In this document: positions 5,007 to 23,359 of the stretch, piece by piece
Numbering within the stretch: position 1 is the stretch's first letter
Layout: each line of letters opens with the position of its first letter
Virus record (IMG/VR): IMGVR_UViG_3300046642_000545
Coordinates: 1-23,359 of that record
DNA from: a virus
Direction: 5' to 3' (one strand)
DNA length: 23,359 nt
Program-made: the position numbers and the translations under genes
Notes under the pieces: model-generated
Told to the model about the DNA's origin: nothing
Databases searched by the model: none
Seen by the model: only the letters and a program-made list of their open reading frames with translations

Positions 5007-5627
5007 CTAGTCGAGCACGATCAACTGCGCGGGATCCACCGCCGAGTCAATCGCAGCCGCGTCCGATTCCAGATCGTACGCGACGGACAGCAAGTAGGTG
5101 CCGTCCTTCTCCATCTCAGCTGCTTCCTTCCCGATCACCGTTCCTTCCCACTTGAAGGTCAGGTGCGCGACCTTATCGCCCACCGAGATGAGCGTTCCGG
5201 TTGCGTCCGTCCCGACAGGACTATGAGCGTAACTCCACTCGTCGAAGTCCGCAAGGACCTGAGCGGCGTCGTAGCCATACGGGTGAACGTTGAGTTCCCA
5301 CATCGAGTTGAACGCCTTCACGAGAACCGGCTCAAGTGCGTCGCAGCCGGCATACGCTTTCCAGGTCCGTCCTTCAGGATCAGGATCCTCGGTCTCACGA
5401 ACGATCTCTGAAAGCCAGTGAATAATGGCCTTCAGCATATCGAGGTCGGCTTTCTTCAGACCACCTTCTCCGCGAATACTTGTCATATTGGAGAAGTGAT
5501 ACATCGATGCGACTTCCAACCCGTTACCGGGTTGCGTATCGCGATACTGATCTGAGCCGACTTCGTTGTCGAGGTACGATTCAAGAGCGTGCCTCTTGAC
5601 CTCCTCGGAAAGCTCGTTGAGCTTCAT
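5007..5627 (-). CDS. Hypothetical protein, 206 aa
   Basis: ATG at 5625-5627, two bases after the conserved leader. The N-terminal half is helical and acidic (MKLNELSEEVKRHALESYLD; LKKADLDMLKAIIHWLSEIV). The C-terminal part GTLISVGDKVAHLTFKWEGT, then VIGKEAAEMEKDGTYLLSV, looks like a small SH3/KOW-like beta-barrel, inferred from the DKVxx-x-GTVxG pattern only. No catalytic residues stand out. It stands alone between its leader and the 4965-4996 hairpin. Confidence 0.75.
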   Translation of the reverse strand: MKLNELSEEVKRHALESYLDNEVGSDQYRDTQPGNGLEVASMYHFSNMTSIRGEGGLKKADLDMLKAIIHWLSEIVRETEDPDPEGRTWKAYAGCDALEPVLVKAFNSMWELNVHPYGYDAAQVLADFDEWSYAHSPVGTDATGTLISVGDKVAHLTFKWEGTVIGKEAAEMEKDGTYLLSVAYDLESDAAAIDSAVDPAQLIVLD

Positions 5628-5629
5628 TC

Positions 5630-5641
5630 GGTACCCTCCTT
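5630..5641 (-). promoter_or_regulatory. Start-associated RBS element, copy 8
   Basis: AAGGAGGGTACC on the minus strand, two bases before the ATG of the 206-aa gene. The flank AGCAATAACCCAAT upstream is shared with copy 9. Confidence 0.85.
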
Positions 5642-5655
5642 ATTGGGTTATTGCT

Positions 5656-5683
5656 ATTGCCTTTCAGCAGTCAGATGACTACC
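5656..5683 (-). repeat. 28-bp intergenic repeat, copy B
   Basis: Partner of 4938-4965 with three mismatches, in the same orientation and relative position before a leader. Confidence 0.7.
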
Positions 5684-5689
5684 GGATGG

Positions 5690-5708
5690 GGTAGGTCGAT
5701 TGCCTACC
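5690..5708. other. Stem-loop in a left-arm gap
   Basis: GGTAGG/CCTACC (5690-5695 with 5703-5708), seven-base loop, just downstream of the stop of the 48-aa gene. Confidence 0.5.
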
Positions 5709-5719
5709 GCCACCGCTAG

Positions 5720-5866
5720 TCAAATGAAGCGTTCAGAGAGCGGGTAGCGCCGCGCCTGCTTTGCGCGGAACTTGCGCTCGTAGCCAATAACATTCCAGAG
5801 GTAAATCCGGAACATCATCGATTCGTGACGCCGCGGGTACATCTCGCGGATAGCTTCCATATACAT
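5720..5866 (-). CDS. Small basic protein, 48 aa
   Basis: ATG at 5864-5866, two bases after a conserved leader, with a TGA stop at 5720-5722. Sequence begins MYMEAIREMYPRRHESMMFR and continues with a Tyr/Arg/Lys-rich helix (YERKFRAKQARRYP). Basic and aromatic, with no membrane segment. The leader makes it as well supported as its larger neighbours. Function unknown; nucleic-acid binding is possible from charge only. Confidence 0.7.
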   Translation of the reverse strand: MYMEAIREMYPRRHESMMFRIYLWNVIGYERKFRAKQARRYPLSERFI

Positions 5867-5868
5867 GC

Positions 5869-5880
5869 GGTACCCTCCTT
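5869..5880 (-). promoter_or_regulatory. Start-associated RBS element, copy 9
   Basis: AAGGAGGGTACC on the minus strand before the 48-aa gene; only 31 bp separate this gene from the previous stop, so here the element lacks room for a hairpin. Confidence 0.85.
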
Positions 5881-5897
5881 ATTGGGTTATTGCTGGG

Positions 5898-6167
5898 TTA
5901 CGGCTTCTTGATCTTCGGGAGGCAGGTGAGGCAGAAATGCCCCGTACTTGTCCCGAAGCGCGTCTTGAACTTCACTTGTCCTAGCGCCGCGTTCCGGGGG
6001 CATCTCTGTTTGGATTCCGGGTCGCGGTAGTTGCACTGAACGTTAGGGAAGGTCACGTGCGGTTTTGCCTTCCGCCCGAGCCCTCTTGATTCGTAGGAGT
6101 TGCGCTCGCTCTTGGGTCCGGCTTGCGCTTTCATTCTCCTGCGATACGCCTTAGTTGCTTCGTCCAT
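5898..6167 (-). CDS. Cys-containing basic protein, 89 aa
   Basis: ATG at 6165-6167, three bases after the conserved leader, which rules out the in-frame extension to 6416 through hairpin DNA. Basic N-terminus (KAYRRRMKAQAGPKSERNSY), then C45 (VQCNY), C56 (QRCPRNAALG), and H77, C79, C82 (GHFCLTC) near the C-terminus: a probable zinc finger with an unusual long spacing. Function unknown; basic charge and a zinc-type site fit nucleic-acid binding. First gene of the leftward block, next to the 1.3-kb non-coding region. Confidence 0.75.
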   Translation of the reverse strand: MDEATKAYRRRMKAQAGPKSERNSYESRGLGRKAKPHVTFPNVQCNYRDPESKQRCPRNAALGQVKFKTRFGTSTGHFCLTCLPKIKKP

Positions 6168-6170
6168 TTC

Positions 6171-6185
6171 GGTACCCTCCTTTTT
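6171..6185 (-). promoter_or_regulatory. Start-associated RBS element, copy 10
   Basis: AAAAAGGAGGGTACC on the minus strand, three bases before the ATG of the 89-aa gene; the rightmost copy in this orientation. Confidence 0.85.
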
Positions 6186-6201
6186 GGGGGCGATTTGCCG
6201 C

Positions 6202-6288
6202 CCCATTGAGGGGAGCGCGCTCGCAACTGGGTCGCACCTCTTGCGAGTAGAGGACGGATTGCGGCCCGACGCGCCTCCCCTCAATGGG
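6202..6288. repeat. 14-bp inverted repeat with inner stem
   Basis: CCCATTGAGGGGAG (6202-6215) and its exact complement (6275-6288) enclose a second perfect stem, CTCGCAA (6220-6226) with TTGCGAG (6241-6247). One bulged base allows four more GC pairs on the outer stem. No T-run follows on either strand. It lies upstream of the first leftward gene: a structured leader RNA, cruciform or protein-binding site. Confidence 0.65.
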
Positions 6289-6289
6289 A

Positions 6290-6319
6290 CGGACGTGACC
6301 TTTCTTTTGGTCGCGTCCG
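6290..6319. other. 11-bp stem-loop with TTTCTTTT loop
   Basis: CGGACGTGACC (6290-6300) pairs with GGTCGCGTCCG (6309-6319), including one T-G wobble, around an eight-base pyrimidine loop. Directly beside the 6202-6288 repeat. Confidence 0.6.
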
Positions 6320-6329
6320 CCCCGGCCGT

Positions 6330-6344
6330 AAAGGAGGGGGTACC
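6330..6344 (+). promoter_or_regulatory. Orphan, oppositely oriented RBS-like element
   Basis: AAAGGAGGGGGTACC on the + strand resembles the left-arm leader with two extra G bases, but no ATG, GTG or TTG follows at the right distance. It also forms GGGGG/CCCCC (6336-6340 with 6351-6355). Confidence 0.35.
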
Positions 6345-6900
6345 ATTTATCCCCCAAGACCGCCCGTAGGATTTGTCCGTTACGCTAGCTCCTTTTGTCC
6401 GCTCGCCTCTAAGCATATACTCACGATCTCCGCGCCCTAGCGCATAACCGCCCCTAGCTATTTGGCGTCAGTACGGAACTGCGAGGTTCCGGACAATTCG
6501 TACGTCCGTTCTTGGGTTAAGGTTTTCAAAGGTCAGGTGAGCGTTTCGCGCGAGTCCATTTCGTCTCCGTCACCTCCCGGCGGTATCCATTGTCTAGGGG
6601 ACAATTTCGATATTCCTCCTCAAGACGGCCTAATCATCGGTCGGCTCACATCTGAGGGATCCGGGGCGCAGTTTGCGAGCCGTAGGCTCGACTTACAAGT
6701 TATTGCCCCTACCGGGATCGGGGGACGCACGCGGTTGAAGCTCCCGAGCCGGGTTCGGCGGGGACTTCAACGCGACGCTCAATTTTCAAGGATCAGGTTA
6801 GGAGGGGCAAACTCGCGATTCAAACCTCTCGCAAACCCCCCGACCTCGCGAGGCGAGGTCCCCCGGAGTCTACCCTATACAAACACTGACGTCTAGGGAG
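6345..6900. other. Non-coding segment with stem-loops and a 19-bp direct repeat
   Basis: No frame here has a ribosome site with coding character. It holds stems at 6676-6690 (CGAGCC/GGCTCG), 6735-6770 (TTGAAG, TCCC and GCCG arms, three stacked parts) and 6842-6860 (GACCTCGC-gag-GCGAGGTC). A 19-bp direct repeat matching at 16 positions lies at 6523-6541 and 6783-6801 (core TTTTCAA...TCAGGT). Confidence 0.5.
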
Positions 6901-7074
6901 TCATAAGATGTTTCCTAAGGAGTCCTAAGTTGAAATAAGGAGTCGTGCTTTTCCTTTGAGGTGTTTTGAAAGTGTTGTTTTGGCACATGACAGGGGGATG
7001 GATATGAACGGTTTGAACGGGGGTGAAAACCGGCCGTTTTGAGATGGGCTTACGTGCCCGATTGTATACGTACA

Positions 7075-7130
7075 TGACGTGTATTGGTAAGTTACTACTT
7101 ACCATCCAAGGCATACCAACGTACACGTCA
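7075..7130. repeat. Inverted repeat with nested hairpin
   Basis: TGACGTGTA-TTGGTA (7075-7089) pairs with TACCAA-cg-TACACGTCA (7114-7130). A nested perfect hairpin, GGTAAGT-tact-ACTTACC (7086-7103), competes for part of the same arm. A possible protein-binding operator or switch. Confidence 0.6.
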
Positions 7131-7144
7131 GAGTTTTCGGTTTT

Positions 7145-7439
7145 TGGCTTGACTTGAGAAGGAGTTTTACGACTTACGAGCGGGAATTGCCTTGCCGAAT
7201 CGTTCAGGCTTACGAGTTGGCTTGTATACGCAAGAGTTTTCACATGCTTTGACCGATTTTTCAGGCTTACGAGATGGCGTGTTTTGGAAGTTGGCTTGAG
7301 TTGCCGGGAACACTGTTCCTGTGTTGAGTTGAGCGTACAGCCGGCAGCCGAGCTGTACCCACGGATTTGGCTTGCCTTGACGGATTTTACAGGCTTACGA
7401 GATGGCATGCTTTGCCGACTTTGAACGGCTTATGAGTTG
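7145..7439 (+). repeat. Degenerate 34-bp direct repeats (about five copies)
   Basis: Copies at 7243-7276, 7371-7404 and 7406-7439 are each 34 bp; related copies are at about 7184-7219 and 7145-7181. The shared core is CAGGCTTACGAGATG, preceded by a CTTTGxCGATTTT-like part. The last two full copies are one base apart. Between copies lie a 13-bp palindrome GGAACACTGTTCC (7307-7319) and a 10-bp stem GTACAGCCGG/CCG-GCTGTAC (7335-7358). Iteron-like in layout; an origin or operator array is inferred. Confidence 0.6.
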
Positions 7440-7457
7440 TCTTGACGTCGAAATGAG

Positions 7458-8213
7458 TTGACATGCGATTGTCGGGTGAGCCGACAATCTCAAGGCAAGA
7501 CAGTCGGGGCGGCCGATGGTCGTGGCGTGAGACCGTCGGTCACGCCGACAGTCGGCACGGCCAATCGTAGGGAAAACAAGCTAAAATCCCCCGTTCGGGG
7601 GAGACGAACCGCGCGGTGCGCCGGTACGCTACTACCGAAGACGAACGAGGGACGGGGCGAACGGATCGCCCGCGAATCGGTCGTCGGGAAGGAAGCTATA
7701 CCGAAGCTCGAAACTATCCGGAGGGCCGCTACCGCCCTTTACCTCGCGGCCCTCGCGGCCGACGGCGGAGCGGGCTACCCGTACTCCCCCGCGAAGACGA
7801 CCGCGACGCTCGCGAAGCGGTACGGGATCGACCCCCGCGGCTCTATCGTCGGGATCGTCGCGGCGGAGTACTACCGCGAAAACGGGACGCGCGCTCCGCT
7901 CTCGTTCGACCGGCTCGCGAAGGACGGACGCCCGACCGAAGCGGGTATCGCCCGGAGCGTCCGTAAGGCCCGGGACGCCCGCGGACGGCTCGCGCGGTGG
8001 GAGGTACTCGCGTACCGCCTCGCGGCCGCTCTCGGTACCGAGACGATCCCGTCTCGCTCCGCGGTCGAAGGGTACTACCGGAAGGGCGGCGGCGACGTCG
8101 AGACGTCCTATACCGGGAAGGGTACGCGCGCCGGAGCGACCGCGACGCGCGGCGACGCTACCGTCGAGGTCTCCGCGTCGGATCCCGTCGCGGACGCGGC
8201 GGCCGCCGAGTAA
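7458..8213 (+). CDS. Unknown protein from CA/TG-void DNA; start uncertain
   Basis: The frame is open from a TTG at 7458 to TAA at 8211-8213 (at most 251 aa). The first 50 or so codons cover hairpin DNA and have no good ribosome site, so the real start is probably later. The body looks like a genuine alpha-helical protein: ETIRRAATALYLAALAADGG, then TLAKRYGIDPRGSIVGIVAA, EYYRENG and a basic helix ARSVRKARDARGRLARWEVL, with a low-complexity tail ending DPVADAAAAE. From 7619 on there is no CA and one TG (the Trp codon), so the body has no His, Gln, Met or Cys and no ATG, GTG or TTG. In-frame candidates are GTG 7527 (poor RBS) or a non-standard ATA at 7698, after GGGAAGGAAGCT. A terminator follows. 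Function unknown. Confidence 0.6.
   Translation: MTCDCRVSRQSQGKTVGAADGRGVRPSVTPTVGTANRRENKLKSPVRGRRTARCAGTLLPKTNEGRGERIARESVVGKEAIPKLETIRRAATALYLAALAADGGAGYPYSPAKTTATLAKRYGIDPRGSIVGIVAAEYYRENGTRAPLSFDRLAKDGRPTEAGIARSVRKARDARGRLARWEVLAYRLAAALGTETIPSRSAVEGYYRKGGGDVETSYTGKGTRAGATATRGDATVEVSASDPVADAAAAE
7467..7489. other. 9-bp stem-loop
   Basis: GATTGTCGG-gtgag-CCGACAATC, perfect, followed by a related GTCGG/CCGAC family of arms at 7524-7555. Upstream of the CA/TG-void gene, so possibly in its leader. Confidence 0.6.
7587..7602. other. TCCCCC-gttc-GGGGGA stem-loop
   Basis: Six-bp stem with a GTTC loop. It resembles an intrinsic terminator stem but has no T-run; it lies where a leader of the next gene would be. 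Confidence 0.45.
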
Positions 8214-8248
8214 CGGCGCACCGCGCGAGCGGTATCCGCGTTCGGCCG

Positions 8249-8277
8249 AGAGGCCCCCTACGGGGGGCCTCTCTTTT
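8249..8277 (+). terminator. Strong intrinsic terminator
   Basis: Ten-bp stem AGAGGCCCCC/GGGGGCCTCT closed by an extra-stable C(TACG)G loop, followed by CTTTT. It lies 35 bp after the stop of the CA/TG-void gene and isolates it from the late genes. Confidence 0.9.
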
Positions 8278-8335
8278 CGCGCCGGGACTCCGGGAGGTGG
8301 GGATCGGGGACTTCAGATAGAAACTGGCTCGAAAA

Positions 8336-8648
8336 ATATTCACACACGCCTAAAACCCCTGCTCACAAACACTTTCCTTCCACCAAACCCCCACCAAACT
8401 GCGCTCAAGAACCAGCCGAACACCCACCCAAGCGACACACGACCGGAAAAACGGAAAAATACACACGCGCAAAACGAACCAGCTGGAAACAAGCAACTTT
8501 CTTTCCACCAAAGCATATCAAAACCCAGTTCAAACCCCCATCCAACCCAACCCAAAAAAAATCCAACAAAACCTCAAAAAAAATCACACAATCCAACAAA
8601 TCAAAAACCCAAATTCACTTACTACGCCTCCGCGACCCCCCCCCCCCC
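8336..8648 (+). other. G-poor, A/C-rich tract ending in C13
   Basis: About 300 nt with very few G on the + strand, no gene, many CAA, CCA and ACC steps, and a run of 13 C (8636-8648). A short repeat TTTCCTTCCACCAAA recurs as TTTCTTTCCACCAAA. The RNA of the + strand would be C-rich and nearly unstructured, the known preference of Rho loading sites. Alternatives are an unwinding element or a packaging-related site. Confidence 0.6.
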
Positions 8649-8792
8649 TCCGTGGCATTTCTCGTCTCCGCGCATACGTATACGGGGGAAAGTCCGAAGG
8701 ACTTTGGGCGGGCGCGCGCTCGGGCGCATACGTGCGCCTACGCGAGGCCGGAAGGTGGGGGTCTGCCCTCGCGGGCGAGAGCGTAGTAAGTG
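8616..8792. repeat. Perfect 12-bp inverted repeat flanking a structured segment
   Basis: CACTTACTACGC (8616-8627) and GCGTAGTAAGTG (8781-8792) are exact complements 153 bp apart. Inside are the C13 run, AAAGTCC-gaa-GGACTTT (8689-8705) and GGCGCA-tacg-TGCGCC (8723-8738). No open frame. It could fold as a 177-nt RNA, or be a recombination or packaging site. Confidence 0.6.
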
Positions 8793-8796
8793 GAGC

Positions 8797-8825
8797 TAGA
8801 CTTCACGTCCTCCAACAGGTAGGAT
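8797..8825 (+). promoter_or_regulatory. Candidate promoter before the LAGLIDADG-like gene
   Basis: TAGACT, 17 bp, TAGGAT (each 4 of 6 against the sigma70-type consensus). Placed 50 bp before the ATG at 8875. Weak alone, but it shares TAGAC and the spacing with the site at 9245. Confidence 0.35.
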
Positions 8826-8874
8826 CGAGGAATCCCTAGAGACGCCCAACCAAGGGCAGAGAAAAGGAGGCACT

Positions 8875-9240
8875 ATGGCAAGGCCAAGGAAGCAACCACC
8901 GGTGAGTCTCACGAAGGATGAATTGATCTACCTCGCGGGGCTGTTTGACGGAACGATTGGCTTGCGTGGAACGAGCGACATCTACGCAGTCGCCATCTCC
9001 AAGAAACCGGATTGGCCCGAAGTCATGGCCAAGAAGTACGGCGGCGAGTCCAAGCCGTTCACGTCCAAGGGCGGCAAGGTTCTGTTTGGTTGGTTTGTCC
9101 CGCTCCAGCGCAGGCTGGAACTCTTCCTCATGCTGGAGAACGCCCAACTCATCCAGAGCCTGGACCCATACGACTGTGATGGAGTCCGTGGCAGGCTCCA
9201 GAAGTCCATCAACTCGCTCAAGGAACGCGGCGGGGACTGA
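8875..9240 (+). CDS. LAGLIDADG-like protein with degenerate active site, 121 aa
   Basis: ATG at 8875 after AAAAGGAGGCACT. Residues 20-29, YLAGLFDGTIGL in context, match the LAGLIDADG helix of homing endonucleases. Further family features follow in order: a strand (IYAVAISKK), KKYGGESKPF, GKVLFGWFVP and a helix LELFLMLENAQLIQSL. Length and single motif fit the one-motif (homodimeric) class. In LAGLIDADG the eighth position is the catalytic Asp/Glu; here it is Thr27, as if the usual DGEG had lost EG. The protein may therefore bind DNA without cutting, as some domesticated members do. It stands alone between two candidate promoters at the head of the rightward block. Family assignment is moderate; loss of activity is inference. 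Confidence 0.65.
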   Translation: MARPRKQPPVSLTKDELIYLAGLFDGTIGLRGTSDIYAVAISKKPDWPEVMAKKYGGESKPFTSKGGKVLFGWFVPLQRRLELFLMLENAQLIQSLDPYDCDGVRGRLQKSINSLKERGGD

Positions 9241-20724: not shown

Positions 20725-23359
20725 TGGCAACCTTCATTGGTGAAATCTCTGCGTCGGCTACTAGCGTCGCTATCCCTACTCATCAGCCGGGTGATTTGAT
20801 TGTAATTGTTTCGCGCGGTCCTACTACTGTACCAACGCCACCTGCTGCTGGCGGAACAGTTCCCACTTTCGTGAATCTTAGTGGTGCCGGAGGTAGTGGA
20901 GTTTGCTATTCGTGCTATATTGCATATGCTACTGCATCGAATCATACTACTGGAACCTGGAGCAACGCGACGGAGATGATAGCTGCGGTATTCCGTCCAG
21001 CAGCGGGGAATTCATTTCTTAAGGGTGCTGGAGGCGGTGGTCAACAGGCTGTTGCTGCTAGTATTGTCTACCCGGCTGGTGCAGCCCCATTTGGAAAGCT
21101 CAATGGAACTTCTCTAGGTCTACGACTTGGTGCTCGCGCTTCGTTGGATGCCAATATGGGCAATCCTCCGACTGGATGGACAAGCGCGGGTGTTGAACCT
21201 GCGGCTCCGAATGGTCTTGTGACACTGCACTATCGCTTTGCCATAACCGTGCAACCAGTTGCCGACACGGTAACTATGGCAACTAGTGCTCAGGAACGTG
21301 CAGGTACATTTGAGATTTTCGAGGGCATCTTTGTTTCGGATTCGGATACGAACGGAGTAACAACTGAGACAGCTACCGCCGCTCTCAAAACTCCGAAGCA
21401 GTATCTGCTGGGATCTGGGGCTGATGGAAACTTTGCCGCTCTGGCCGATGGAGTCGATCAGACAGCGGCTTCTCGTACGGACGGCTGGACTGTAGCCAAG
21501 ACCGCAGCTGGCAACGCTTCGGACTTCGATGCGGGCACCAAGCAGCTCGCGACTTCTTTTGCGACGGCGTCAGGCAAGCCGTCGGCAATTCTGATCGGTA
21601 CGACCGCTAATGCATTCAAGACTCCTGCCGTTCTGAACGGAGGGTTCGTAGCGGGGGCATGGATTCTTTCATTTGCAGTCAGAGCCGTCACCCTCTCTGC
21701 GCAGGCAGGACGAGCGCGCGTCCGTGTCTACAAGGGATCGGCCGCGGATGGGTCGAACGCGGTAGAGCTGACATCAGGTACGCAGGTTGGCTCAACTACC
21801 GGGACTCTCTCCACGACCGTAGATGTAGTTTCTACCGTCACTTGGGTTCCGGGCGCGATCACTCTGAACAATGAGTACCTCTTCTTCGTGGTCGCTTGGG
21901 AAATTACAACGCAATCAGGTAGCACCTCGGCCGATGTTGTTCTGCGAACGGGGCAAGCAGCCGCCGGTACTGGAGTCGTAACTTCTTCATTCACTCCCTC
22001 GACTCCAATTTCAGCGACCGATGCGAACGGGACGACGACCGAATCTGCCTCTGTTGCGGTTGCTCCCCTTACTCTGATCGATGACTTCAATCGGGCGAAT
22101 GGCGCGATCTACGCGGGCGCGGGCGCGGCAATCTGGACGGGTCACGGGATCGGAAATACCACCCCGGCTACTAACTCCGCTGTCATTGGGAACCAGGCCG
22201 GGGTCCTCGCCGCCAACGCCAGTTGCGCCTCGCTTCTACTCATGCAGTCAGACTTCGATATGACCTGGGACTGCGTAGTTGCGCCGGGTGGCGGTGCGGG
22301 AGCGAACTTCTACGTCTGCTTGAGTAACTACGATCAGGGCACTTGGAACGGCATCGCTATTGGATACAATGCCGGTCCTTGGTACGCGACCTCCTACACC
22401 GCAGGTAGCGGTTCTCCAGCAGGAAGCGCAGCCAGTGCCGCGATCCAAGCTGGTGAGACGTATCTCATCTCGAAGAGAGGGACAACTGTCTCTTTCTTCA
22501 AGTCAACTACTGGCGGACCATTCACGTTGATTATGAGTTTCGGCGTAGCGGGCACTTTCGGAGCTGGCGCTTTCGGCACAGTCTTCACCGATACAACGCA
22601 GCGCTGGGACAACCTTCGCGGCGGGCCTCTAGCTCCCATTCCGATATCGAGTACGGATGCGAATGGAGCGACGACCGAGAGTGCGTCCTTCGTTGCTCAA
22701 TTGGTCGGGACCGACCCGACTGGTCCGGAGATTGAGCTAGCTACACTAGTCACGCAACTGTCGGCCTCCGACTTGAACGGGACGACGACCGAGGCTGCGA
22801 CGCCAAATACCCTGGTTGCCTCGACGGATACGAACGGAACGACAACCGAGTCTCAATCCGTCAATATAGTTCAGGCGGTCTCAGCAACCGACACGAATGG
22901 AACGACGACTGAGGCGCAGTCGGTCGTTGTTTCGATCTCGACCTCGGATGCGACTGGGACGGCGACCGAAGCGCAATCAGTCAAGGGCGTCGTCTCTACC
23001 GCTGATGTCAACGGGACTGTGACCGAAGTCGGGACGGCAGTCCAGGGAGTCGTCCCGATCAGCGGATCGGACTCGGGCTCAGGTTCTGAGACTGCGACGG
23101 TGAAGGCGGTTCTTGCCGTAGCCGACGGAATGGCGGGGGTATCGTACCACGACACAATTGTCGGTGGCGGGCCATACGCCTACTATCGCTTGGGTGAGTC
23201 CTCGGGAACGAGTGCCGCTGAAGAGATCAGCGGATACAGCGGTACCTTTGTCGGTAGTCATGGAGGCCCAACTCTCGGACAGGCGGGGATCCCCGGCGGG
23301 CAAGGGAGCACAGCGATAGGAGGAACGGGTGGCGACTCGGTAGCTCTAACCAATCTCCC
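20724..23359 (+). CDS. Tail-fibre/receptor-binding-like protein, partial (over 878 aa)
   Basis: ATG at 20724 (TAATG overlap); the frame is open without a stop to the window edge. N-terminal domain 1-200 (HQPGDLIVIVSRGPTTVPTP) is glycine/alanine-rich. A beta-sandwich-like domain lies at about 312-410. Residues 451-632 begin LIDDFNRANG and resemble a concanavalin-like domain. Nine copies of a linker near (S/A)TDxNGTTTExxSV occur at about 204, 430, 641, 679, 699, 719, 739, 758 and 779. From about 806, YHDTIVGGGPYAYYRLGESS starts a LamG-like domain. Domains plus repetitive linkers fit an extended host-binding fibre. The first 600 bp use more A/T-ending codons than neighbouring genes. Confidence 0.75.
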   Translation, partial: MATFIGEISASATSVAIPTHQPGDLIVIVSRGPTTVPTPPAAGGTVPTFVNLSGAGGSGVCYSCYIAYATASNHTTGTWSNATEMIAAVFRPAAGNSFLKGAGGGGQQAVAASIVYPAGAAPFGKLNGTSLGLRLGARASLDANMGNPPTGWTSAGVEPAAPNGLVTLHYRFAITVQPVADTVTMATSAQERAGTFEIFEGIFVSDSDTNGVTTETATAALKTPKQYLLGSGADGNFAALADGVDQTAASRTDGWTVAKTAAGNASDFDAGTKQLATSFATASGKPSAILIGTTANAFKTPAVLNGGFVAGAWILSFAVRAVTLSAQAGRARVRVYKGSAADGSNAVELTSGTQVGSTTGTLSTTVDVVSTVTWVPGAITLNNEYLFFVVAWEITTQSGSTSADVVLRTGQAAAGTGVVTSSFTPSTPISATDANGTTTESASVAVAPLTLIDDFNRANGAIYAGAGAAIWTGHGIGNTTPATNSAVIGNQAGVLAANASCASLLLMQSDFDMTWDCVVAPGGGAGANFYVCLSNYDQGTWNGIAIGYNAGPWYATSYTAGSGSPAGSAASAAIQAGETYLISKRGTTVSFFKSTTGGPFTLIMSFGVAGTFGAGAFGTVFTDTTQRWDNLRGGPLAPIPISSTDANGATTESASFVAQLVGTDPTGPEIELATLVTQLSASDLNGTTTEAATPNTLVASTDTNGTTTESQSVNIVQAVSATDTNGTTTEAQSVVVSISTSDATGTATEAQSVKGVVSTADVNGTVTEVGTAVQGVVPISGSDSGSGSETATVKAVLAVADGMAGVSYHDTIVGGGPYAYYRLGESSGTSAAEEISGYSGTFVGSHGGPTLGQAGIPGGQGSTAIGGTGGDSVALTNL

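Follow-up and report, generated by a model that had tools for sequence, protein, structure and literature searches.

A single probable transcription unit in an uncultivated phage and its relatives has been purged almost entirely of the CA/TG dinucleotide step, and the data below show that strong, lasting and local selection against this step acts across the unit. Amino acids that need the step are avoided along with it, the exceptions being mostly start, Trp and Met codons. As the target of the selecting agent we favour, tentatively, the RNA transcript.

A transcription unit nearly devoid of CA and TG

The window, that is, the whole stretch of DNA analysed, comprises 23,359 nucleotides (positions 1 to 23,359 of IMG/VR record IMGVR_UViG_3300046642_000545). 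An earlier note on this sequence had described an island at positions 7619 to 8218 with no CA and one TG, the latter in its only Trp codon, and our recount gave the same numbers, namely, zero CA and one TG (at 7998), against composition expectations of about 35 CA and 26 TG. The same positions hold 126 CG and 26 TA dinucleotides, and no 600-bp segment elsewhere in the 23,359-base record shows a comparable depletion. The depletion reaches beyond the 600-bp island: the full unit runs from 7578 to 8297 and includes a leader and a terminator. This unit, which contains one CA (8219) and two TG (7617 and 7998), spans a leader hairpin, an open reading frame (ORF), a terminator-like hairpin with its T-run and a GGGACTCC box, and its features are the following.

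7578 to 8297, + strand: whole CA/TG-depleted unit, 720 bp (maximal-segment scan and counts)
7582 to 7587, + strand: possible -10 box TAAAAT at the left edge of the unit (sequence; no match with the sigma-70 scanner)
7588 to 7601, + strand: leader hairpin CCCCC-GTTC-GGGGG at the left edge of the unit, scoring as terminator-like on the - strand
7610 to 7627, + strand: left arm of an inverted repeat, 18 nt, 94% complementary to 8210-8227, holding the TG at 7617
7698 to 8213, + strand: ORF (about 171 aa) with a TAA stop and a probable ATA start, encoding a small, helical protein (homolog alignment, start-codon survey, AlphaFold model)
7998 to 7999, + strand: single TG within the ORF, in the sole Trp codon, TGG (dinucleotide counts)
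8210 to 8227, + strand: right arm of the inverted repeat, holding the CA at 8219 (complementarity; pairs in the predicted RNA fold)
8248 to 8277, + strand: terminator, a GAGAGGCCCCC / GGGGGGCCTCTC hairpin followed by TTTT (scanner and sequence)
8284 to 8291, + strand: GGGACTCC box at the right edge of the unit (position relative to the terminator)

A leader hairpin like that of the window is also found in five relatives (L016, L018, L021, L083 and L088). In the predicted RNA fold of the window's unit, which the inverted repeat closes, the TG at 7617 pairs with the CA at 8219, and in L083 the only CA and the Trp TG sit in complementary heptamers that are paired in the predicted fold. Pairing of leftover CA with leftover TG was nevertheless rejected as a general rule: it holds in the window and L083 but not in L088, which keeps the CA context of L083 without that hairpin, and the sites are too few. 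Such pairing would fit an agent acting on unpaired strands, but because of L088 we do not rely on it. Overall, island RNAs fold modestly better than their shuffles (z from -0.1 to -4.9, 20 shuffles each).

Two other readings of the repeats were discarded. First, the 18-nt inverted repeat (match I4), taken as the terminal repeats of a mobile element, has no equivalent in the homologs read by eye, and the presence of the island in all six terminase loci that reach this place leaves mobility unsupported. Second, paralogy with the gene at 5007-5627 (inverted-repeat matches I1, I2 and I6) is accompanied by no protein similarity, so that the DNA match there is attributed to GC-rich chance.

The depletion is shared by a family of diverged homologs

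Relatives were gathered through terminase and capsid, and then scanned for segments free of CA and TG. First, only six of the 22 terminase loci extend more than 8 kb upstream (L009, L011, L016, L018, L021 and L022), and the island is present in all of them; the remaining 16 have less than 3.3 kb upstream and are too short to show it. L009 is the sister contig of the window, and thus no separate phage. Second, a profile made from six proteins detected homologs in eight out of 40 records, five already in the profile and three added by it (L082, L083 and L084), and none in the other 32, which are mostly short fragments. Third, a later scan added L088, whose gene is cut at the contig end. A homolog of the protein, of about 165 aa, therefore occurs in ten distinct uncultivated phages, the window's included, and the other eight proteins available whole share 37-50% identity with that of the window. 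Some more distant phages, with capsid proteins 57% identical (e.g. the 39.6-kb G035), may lack the gene.

All ten phages that carry the gene are depleted, including L088 as far as its contig goes, and an undepleted homolog was not found. Seven members have 0-1 CA and 1-3 TG per 646-744 bp; the others are L016 (2 CA and 6 TG over 947 bp), L084 (0 CA and 6 TG over 636 bp) and L088 (2 CA and 2 TG in its 426 bp). Observed-to-expected ratios for the six islands tabulated are 0.00-0.03 for CA and 0.03-0.12 for TG, whereas outside the islands these loci have ordinary values (CA 0.88-1.08, TG 0.89-1.03), which confines the depletion to the island. With ratios of 1.09-2.01 in the islands, TA is not avoided.

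Relatives outside this family were sought in several ways. None above noise was found in Pfam, PHROGs or PDB sequences; none by tblastn with two members against the 50,697 phage records of INPHARED; and none by pattern-seeded scans of 84,980 species genomes. With no relative in these phage records and species genomes, a constant position in the six terminase loci that reach it and a normal CA/TG content of the surrounding DNA, import from a genome with this bias, which the earlier note had put forward as one possible origin, is unsupported. A comparison of positions 5600-8900 with Rfam gave nothing above noise.

Protein content, codon usage and rarity

The depletion is not a product of chance. 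It might be seen as a by-product of amino-acid content, codon usage or high G+C, the gene being GC-rich and rich in Ala, Arg and Gly. However, when the own codons of the nine whole genes were permuted at fixed protein, 80.2±5.7 CA and 61.2±4.7 TG were obtained, against one and 14 observed; for the window gene alone, the expectation is 10.7±2.1 CA and 7.3±1.7 TG, against zero and one. Under phage codon usage, the window gene should have 43.2±5.0 CA plus TG, where one is observed, and the mean expectation for each of the nine genes is 35-47, where 0-4 are observed. The shuffled controls thus lie far above the real counts, and the non-coding leader and 3' end are depleted as well, which leaves a by-product with practically no credibility. 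The 14 residual TG in the nine genes include seven Trp codons and three Met codons, all three in L084 and one of them its start; over the whole units, the TGs that persist mostly belong to start, Trp or Met codons or stand where the terminator T-run ends.

To place the islands among other sequences, a rarity scan covered 97 sequences (1.26 Mb, overlapping), retaining segments that scored at least 100. As controls it included 27 kb of Gordonia phage GMA4, 25 kb of a fecal phage contig, and 47-50 kb each of Arthrobacter phage Amavida, Gordonia phage Schnabeltier, Mycobacterium phage Rem711 and Streptomyces phage Kradal. None of these six control stretches (25-50 kb, five of them from named actinophages) holds such an island, so that neither of the outcomes named in the earlier note as refuting it, similar counts in codon-shuffled controls and the same depletion in many unrelated phage genes, was obtained, and the longest segment in this comparison was one of 193 bp in L095. 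Outside the islands, the only segments to reach the threshold were that one and L016:3572-3996, found again in overlapping loci of the same contig. The latter, a weaker CA/TG-poor stretch with 1 CA and 8 TG in 425 bp, is apparently non-coding and lies about 0.9 kb left of the island of L016; the other members have no such second stretch.

Word avoidance is normally partial and genome-wide, and concerns words of at least four bases. In the restriction-site avoidance of phages, selection removes target words, mostly palindromic and of 4-6 bases, from the whole genome. Our case is alike in that a word has been removed from phage DNA, but instead of a word of four or more bases avoided genome-wide, we found a 2-base step avoided in one unit.

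Substitution patterns point to selection

Where two members have identical residues, their codons differ in 896 out of 2,140 comparisons (0.42), these being overlapping, non-independent pairs, against 0.46 expected for random draws from the island's own codon usage. Silent sites are therefore nearly saturated, and common descent fails to explain the shared depletion. That eight diverged homologs and a fragment keep the avoidance despite this saturation substantiates selection against the CA/TG step, which the earlier note had listed among the possible causes.

A mutational process that removes CA/TG, either by RIP-like changes of C to T or by changes of A to G that give CG, would be in keeping with the similar depletion of both strands, with the raised CG and TA ratios, and with the loss of an ordinary start codon inside the island in the window and L011. 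In fungi, RIP and CpA-directed mutation deplete CA/TG and raise TA. However, C is found at none of the 194 fourfold sites before A, where it is replaced by G in 161 cases, by T in just 27 and by A in six; before G, T is found at two of 494 fourfold sites. Since decay of C to T would favour T at fourfold sites, the excess of G speaks for a filter through which the common G passes. Codons for Asn, Asp, Tyr, Phe and Ile that end in C or T before A all end in T (12 out of 12), while the phage's other genes have 103 C and 20 T in this situation. Moreover, none of the nine reading frames is broken, most members retain start, Trp and Met codons, and the rise in CG and TA is about that estimated from removing two of the four YR steps. 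Unlike in RIP, then, C before A mostly gives way to G, the genes are intact and the virus infects bacteria. A directed conversion of CA/TG into CG, as the earlier note had also contemplated, finds no backing in these figures, and we hold a mutational origin to be highly unlikely.

Avoidance of internal start codons (NTG) on both strands has the appeal that TG covers ATG, GTG, TTG and CTG, and CA the same codons on the other strand. In the island set, ATG occurs four times against 25.3 expected, GTG four times against 53.5, and TTG not once against 34.5; but the weak start CTG, with five against 85.4, is avoided as strongly as GTG and TTG, which makes this explanation extremely unlikely.

The encoded protein and its start codon

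As the earlier note had read from the island frame, the window protein has no His, Gln, Met or Cys, and it has a single Trp; the nine proteins together, with 1,474 residues, contain three Met and seven Trp but lack His, Gln and Cys altogether. Within the island, the frame of the window lacks ATG, GTG, TTG and CTG, the in-frame ones being upstream at 7458, 7476 and 7527, and the open frame of L011 lacks these codons anywhere. Among the nine whole members, ATG is the start codon in six and GTG in one. Without ordinary starts, ATC at 6123 in L011 and ATA at 7698 in the window are likely, or else another mode of translation; for the window, alignment of homologs makes ATA 7698 the probable start, with an upstream start as the less probable choice.

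An AlphaFold model from nine sequences has six helices, with pLDDT of at least 90 for 126 of 171 residues and below 50 for residues 140-171, the tail in which a conserved SYTGRGTRAGA-like stretch is located. Structural comparisons gave nothing convincing: Foldseek with this model returned no match at E≤0.001, and VIA-align gave at best a silk domain (Z 5.0), and a paired domain over 44 residues (Z 3.5). The missing match does not imply a new fold. A weak match to HTH_36 (E 0.19, in one of six members), together with the basic tail, suggests a protein that possibly binds nucleic acids. An overlapping gene in another frame was also considered and rejected, as no alternative frame is free of stops in all nine members; the - strand frame '-0' is open in seven of nine, as expected because TGA and TCA are nearly excluded.

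Genomic context of the island

The capsid protein matched 179 phage records, all below 60% identity (mostly of Gordonia, 72, Arthrobacter, 70, and Mycobacterium phages, 26), and the terminase 292 records from many hosts, Vibrio being the most frequent (40), with a human fecal phage contig and Arthrobacter and Streptomyces phages as best matches. Since the terminase hosts are mixed, the label 'actinophage-like' rests mainly on the capsid. The sister contig G001 (57,311 bases) is identical to the window over 1,801 bases around the island and has 12 differences over the 10.75 kb compared; its base 1 corresponds to window position 22167, which gives a joint map of roughly 63 kb whose join at the other end is provisional. 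Among the matches listed for G001 are DNA polymerase III alpha, primase/helicase, exonuclease and helicase in a leftward arm, and tail sheath and baseplate proteins in a rightward structural arm. The island lies where the replication and structural arms diverge.

Several features of the neighbourhood may be described here. Within about 1 kb to the left of the island, repeats with TTGAGTTG and GGCTTA words form a cluster in most members, at 7181-7414 in the window and also in L011, L018, L021 and L022, with fewer exact copies in the window than in other members; these repeats could be binding sites or an origin. Further left, a repeated gene leader, GGTACCCTCCTTATTGGG (+ strand), occurs at 5625-5655, 5864-5894 and 6166-6196, the copies being 68-97% alike, placed shortly before leftward start codons and resembling a common ribosome-binding leader. 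To the right, the stretch at 8461-8680, between the island and the first rightward gene, is C/A-rich with 2-8% G (120-bp windows) and is possibly an unstructured leader. That first gene, at 8875-9240, is conserved in the eight members aligned, has no Pfam match in the five members scanned, and has a product that we take to resemble a small LAGLIDADG-type protein. A replication-arm protein at L006:5428-6084 (- strand) has a PHROG match (E 1e-17) to a family with the annotation polynucleotide kinase and, weakly, one to Pfam NT5C; an RNA-repair role would suit a phage that meets RNA-cutting defences.

The edges of the depletion follow the probable transcript

The 80 nt before the start codon contain one CA/TG in 720 nt over nine members, against 304 in 1,800 nt between -130 and -330. 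Likewise, the stretch between stop codon and GGGACTCC box has five in 669 nt, whereas the following 669 nt have 97; three of the five consist of the final T of the terminator T-run and a G, at or beyond the expected RNA end. Depletion sets in about 80-125 nt ahead of the start codon and, on the other side, tracks the distance from stop codon to box, which varies from 30 to 165 nt. Because its edges follow a 5' leader and a variable 3' end, the depleted stretch behaves as a transcript, unlike an ORF; the transcript ends of the unit are putative.

Terminator signals were read with a scanner and by eye. With the scanner, + strand terminators close to the right edge came out in three of nine members (window, L021 and L022), and - strand hairpins resembling terminators came out at the left edge in three of nine (window, L018 and L083), where region shuffles yield 1.0-2.2 such sites. 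By eye, a hairpin with T-run is also present in L016, L082, L083 and L084, and a hairpin without T-run in L011 and L018. The GGGACTCC box follows the terminator or end hairpin in all nine members read, and in seven it lies beyond the T-run. No sigma-70-like promoter was found by the scanner within 100 nt of the left edges, nor in window 7300-8700. A cos-type physical genome end at the GGGACTCC box, though possible, is unsupported, because the distance from the island to the contig end varies widely among contigs of 57-61 kb.

Given the left-edge hairpins, both strands of the island may be transcribed. Sense and antisense RNAs could then each avoid one word, or the RNA could be an orthogonal one, kept from pairing with the CA-rich and TG-rich flanks or their transcripts or from being bound as they are, the left flank being rich in TTGAGTTG-like repeats and the right one G-poor and C/A-rich. 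Yet preventing such pairing needs no near-total removal of CA/TG, CA/TG counts in the flanks are near their composition expectation, and an antisense promoter was not found, for which reasons both variants appear distinctly unlikely.

More weight is carried by the possibility that a protein which binds, cuts, modifies or primes at the CA:TG step is kept off this stretch of DNA, as at a replication start, or where a DNA-binding protein of low specificity silences the rest. In duplex DNA, CA and TG make up one and the same step, and their avoidance is almost equal; the island, at the divergence of the replication and structural arms and beside the TTGAGTTG repeats, ends in a conserved GGGACTCC box. 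Against this stand the edges, which follow the transcript on both sides, and the point that no enzyme or other protein is known to have so small a target in DNA and yet leave the DNA around it alone. We consider action on the DNA rather unlikely, though it keeps a substantial share because CA/TG is a single step only in duplex DNA, both words are avoided, TA is spared and no enzyme was found.

A proposed RNA-attacking enzyme as the best explanation

Our leading explanation, still short of an even chance, is selection against CA and UG in one transcript, exerted by a dinucleotide-specific enzyme that attacks RNA and is active when the gene is needed; both the transcript as target and the enzyme are inferred. 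We favour it because the edges follow the transcript, because enzymes acting on RNA dinucleotides are on record, and because messages free of sites are translated beside an active RNase. Such an enzyme, attacking RNA at UG and CA at the time when the island gene must be translated, could be a nuclease or modifier from a host defence or toxin system, or else a shut-off nuclease of the phage itself. Damage would scale with the number of sites, so that going from about 35-60 sites to a few would protect the message, while one or two unavoidable sites would be tolerated. The small helical protein would be a regulator or counter-defence protein required at that moment.

The anti-phage enzyme CmdT modifies mRNA at GA dinucleotides in single-stranded RNA (PMC11618068); CmdTAC is thus a bacterial system that attacks mRNA at a dinucleotide, although a different one, and the PMC11618068 excerpts contain no GA-purged phage message. 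Human APE1 cuts single-stranded RNA at CA, UA and UG (PMC7385091), and shows that one enzyme may prefer both CA and UG; apart from being human, it also cuts UA, whereas TA is not avoided in the islands, which counts against this precedent. In E. coli cells expressing MazF (single protein production), peptide is produced from ACA-less transcripts (PMC5408214), that is, a site-free message is translated despite an active RNase. Those messages are engineered and lack a 3-base word; the phage unit, natural, lacking a 2-base step on both strands and including the untranslated regions, would be by analogy their natural counterpart. The PPE genes of M. tuberculosis, in which sites for MazF-mt3 and MazF-mt7 are naturally under-represented (PMC5408214), are likewise a gene family poor in the sites of an RNase, but there the avoidance is partial, the sites are long and a function is unproven, whereas here it is near-absolute, dinucleotide and in a single-copy gene.

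What defines an RNase-proof message, namely, recognition words lacking beyond codon-preserving chance, is found here in genes, leaders and 3' ends. Against the RNA reading is the point that CA and UG are two words in RNA, and one step only in duplex DNA, and yet are avoided almost equally. The lack of a sigma-70 match at the left edges, scanner terminators in just three of nine members, the GGGACTCC box beyond the T-run in seven of nine, the modest gain in folding over shuffles and the loss of CA-TG pairing in L088 likewise weigh against it. Among the protein families listed, no obvious candidate for the cognate RNA-attacking enzyme was found in or near the phage. Searches of the open-licence PMC literature turned up no report of a phage gene or transcript from which CA and TG are missing, though one may exist in print.

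Implications

A step expected about 35-60 times has been almost entirely excluded from one gene and its untranslated ends across a phage family, at the price of three amino acids and, apparently, of the ordinary start codon in two of nine members. This implies a strong and specific agent, directed at a single viral message or at a single stretch of DNA, and the clean specificity makes the matter directly testable. It is conceivable, if rather doubtful, that the message is immune to a CA/UG-specific anti-phage or host-shutoff enzyme that has not been described, such that a regulator or counter-defence protein is made while other messages are destroyed. If true, a whole transcription unit, apparently including the start codon in two of nine members, would have been recoded to escape the enzyme, and its sequence would betray the specificity of an enzyme nobody has described.
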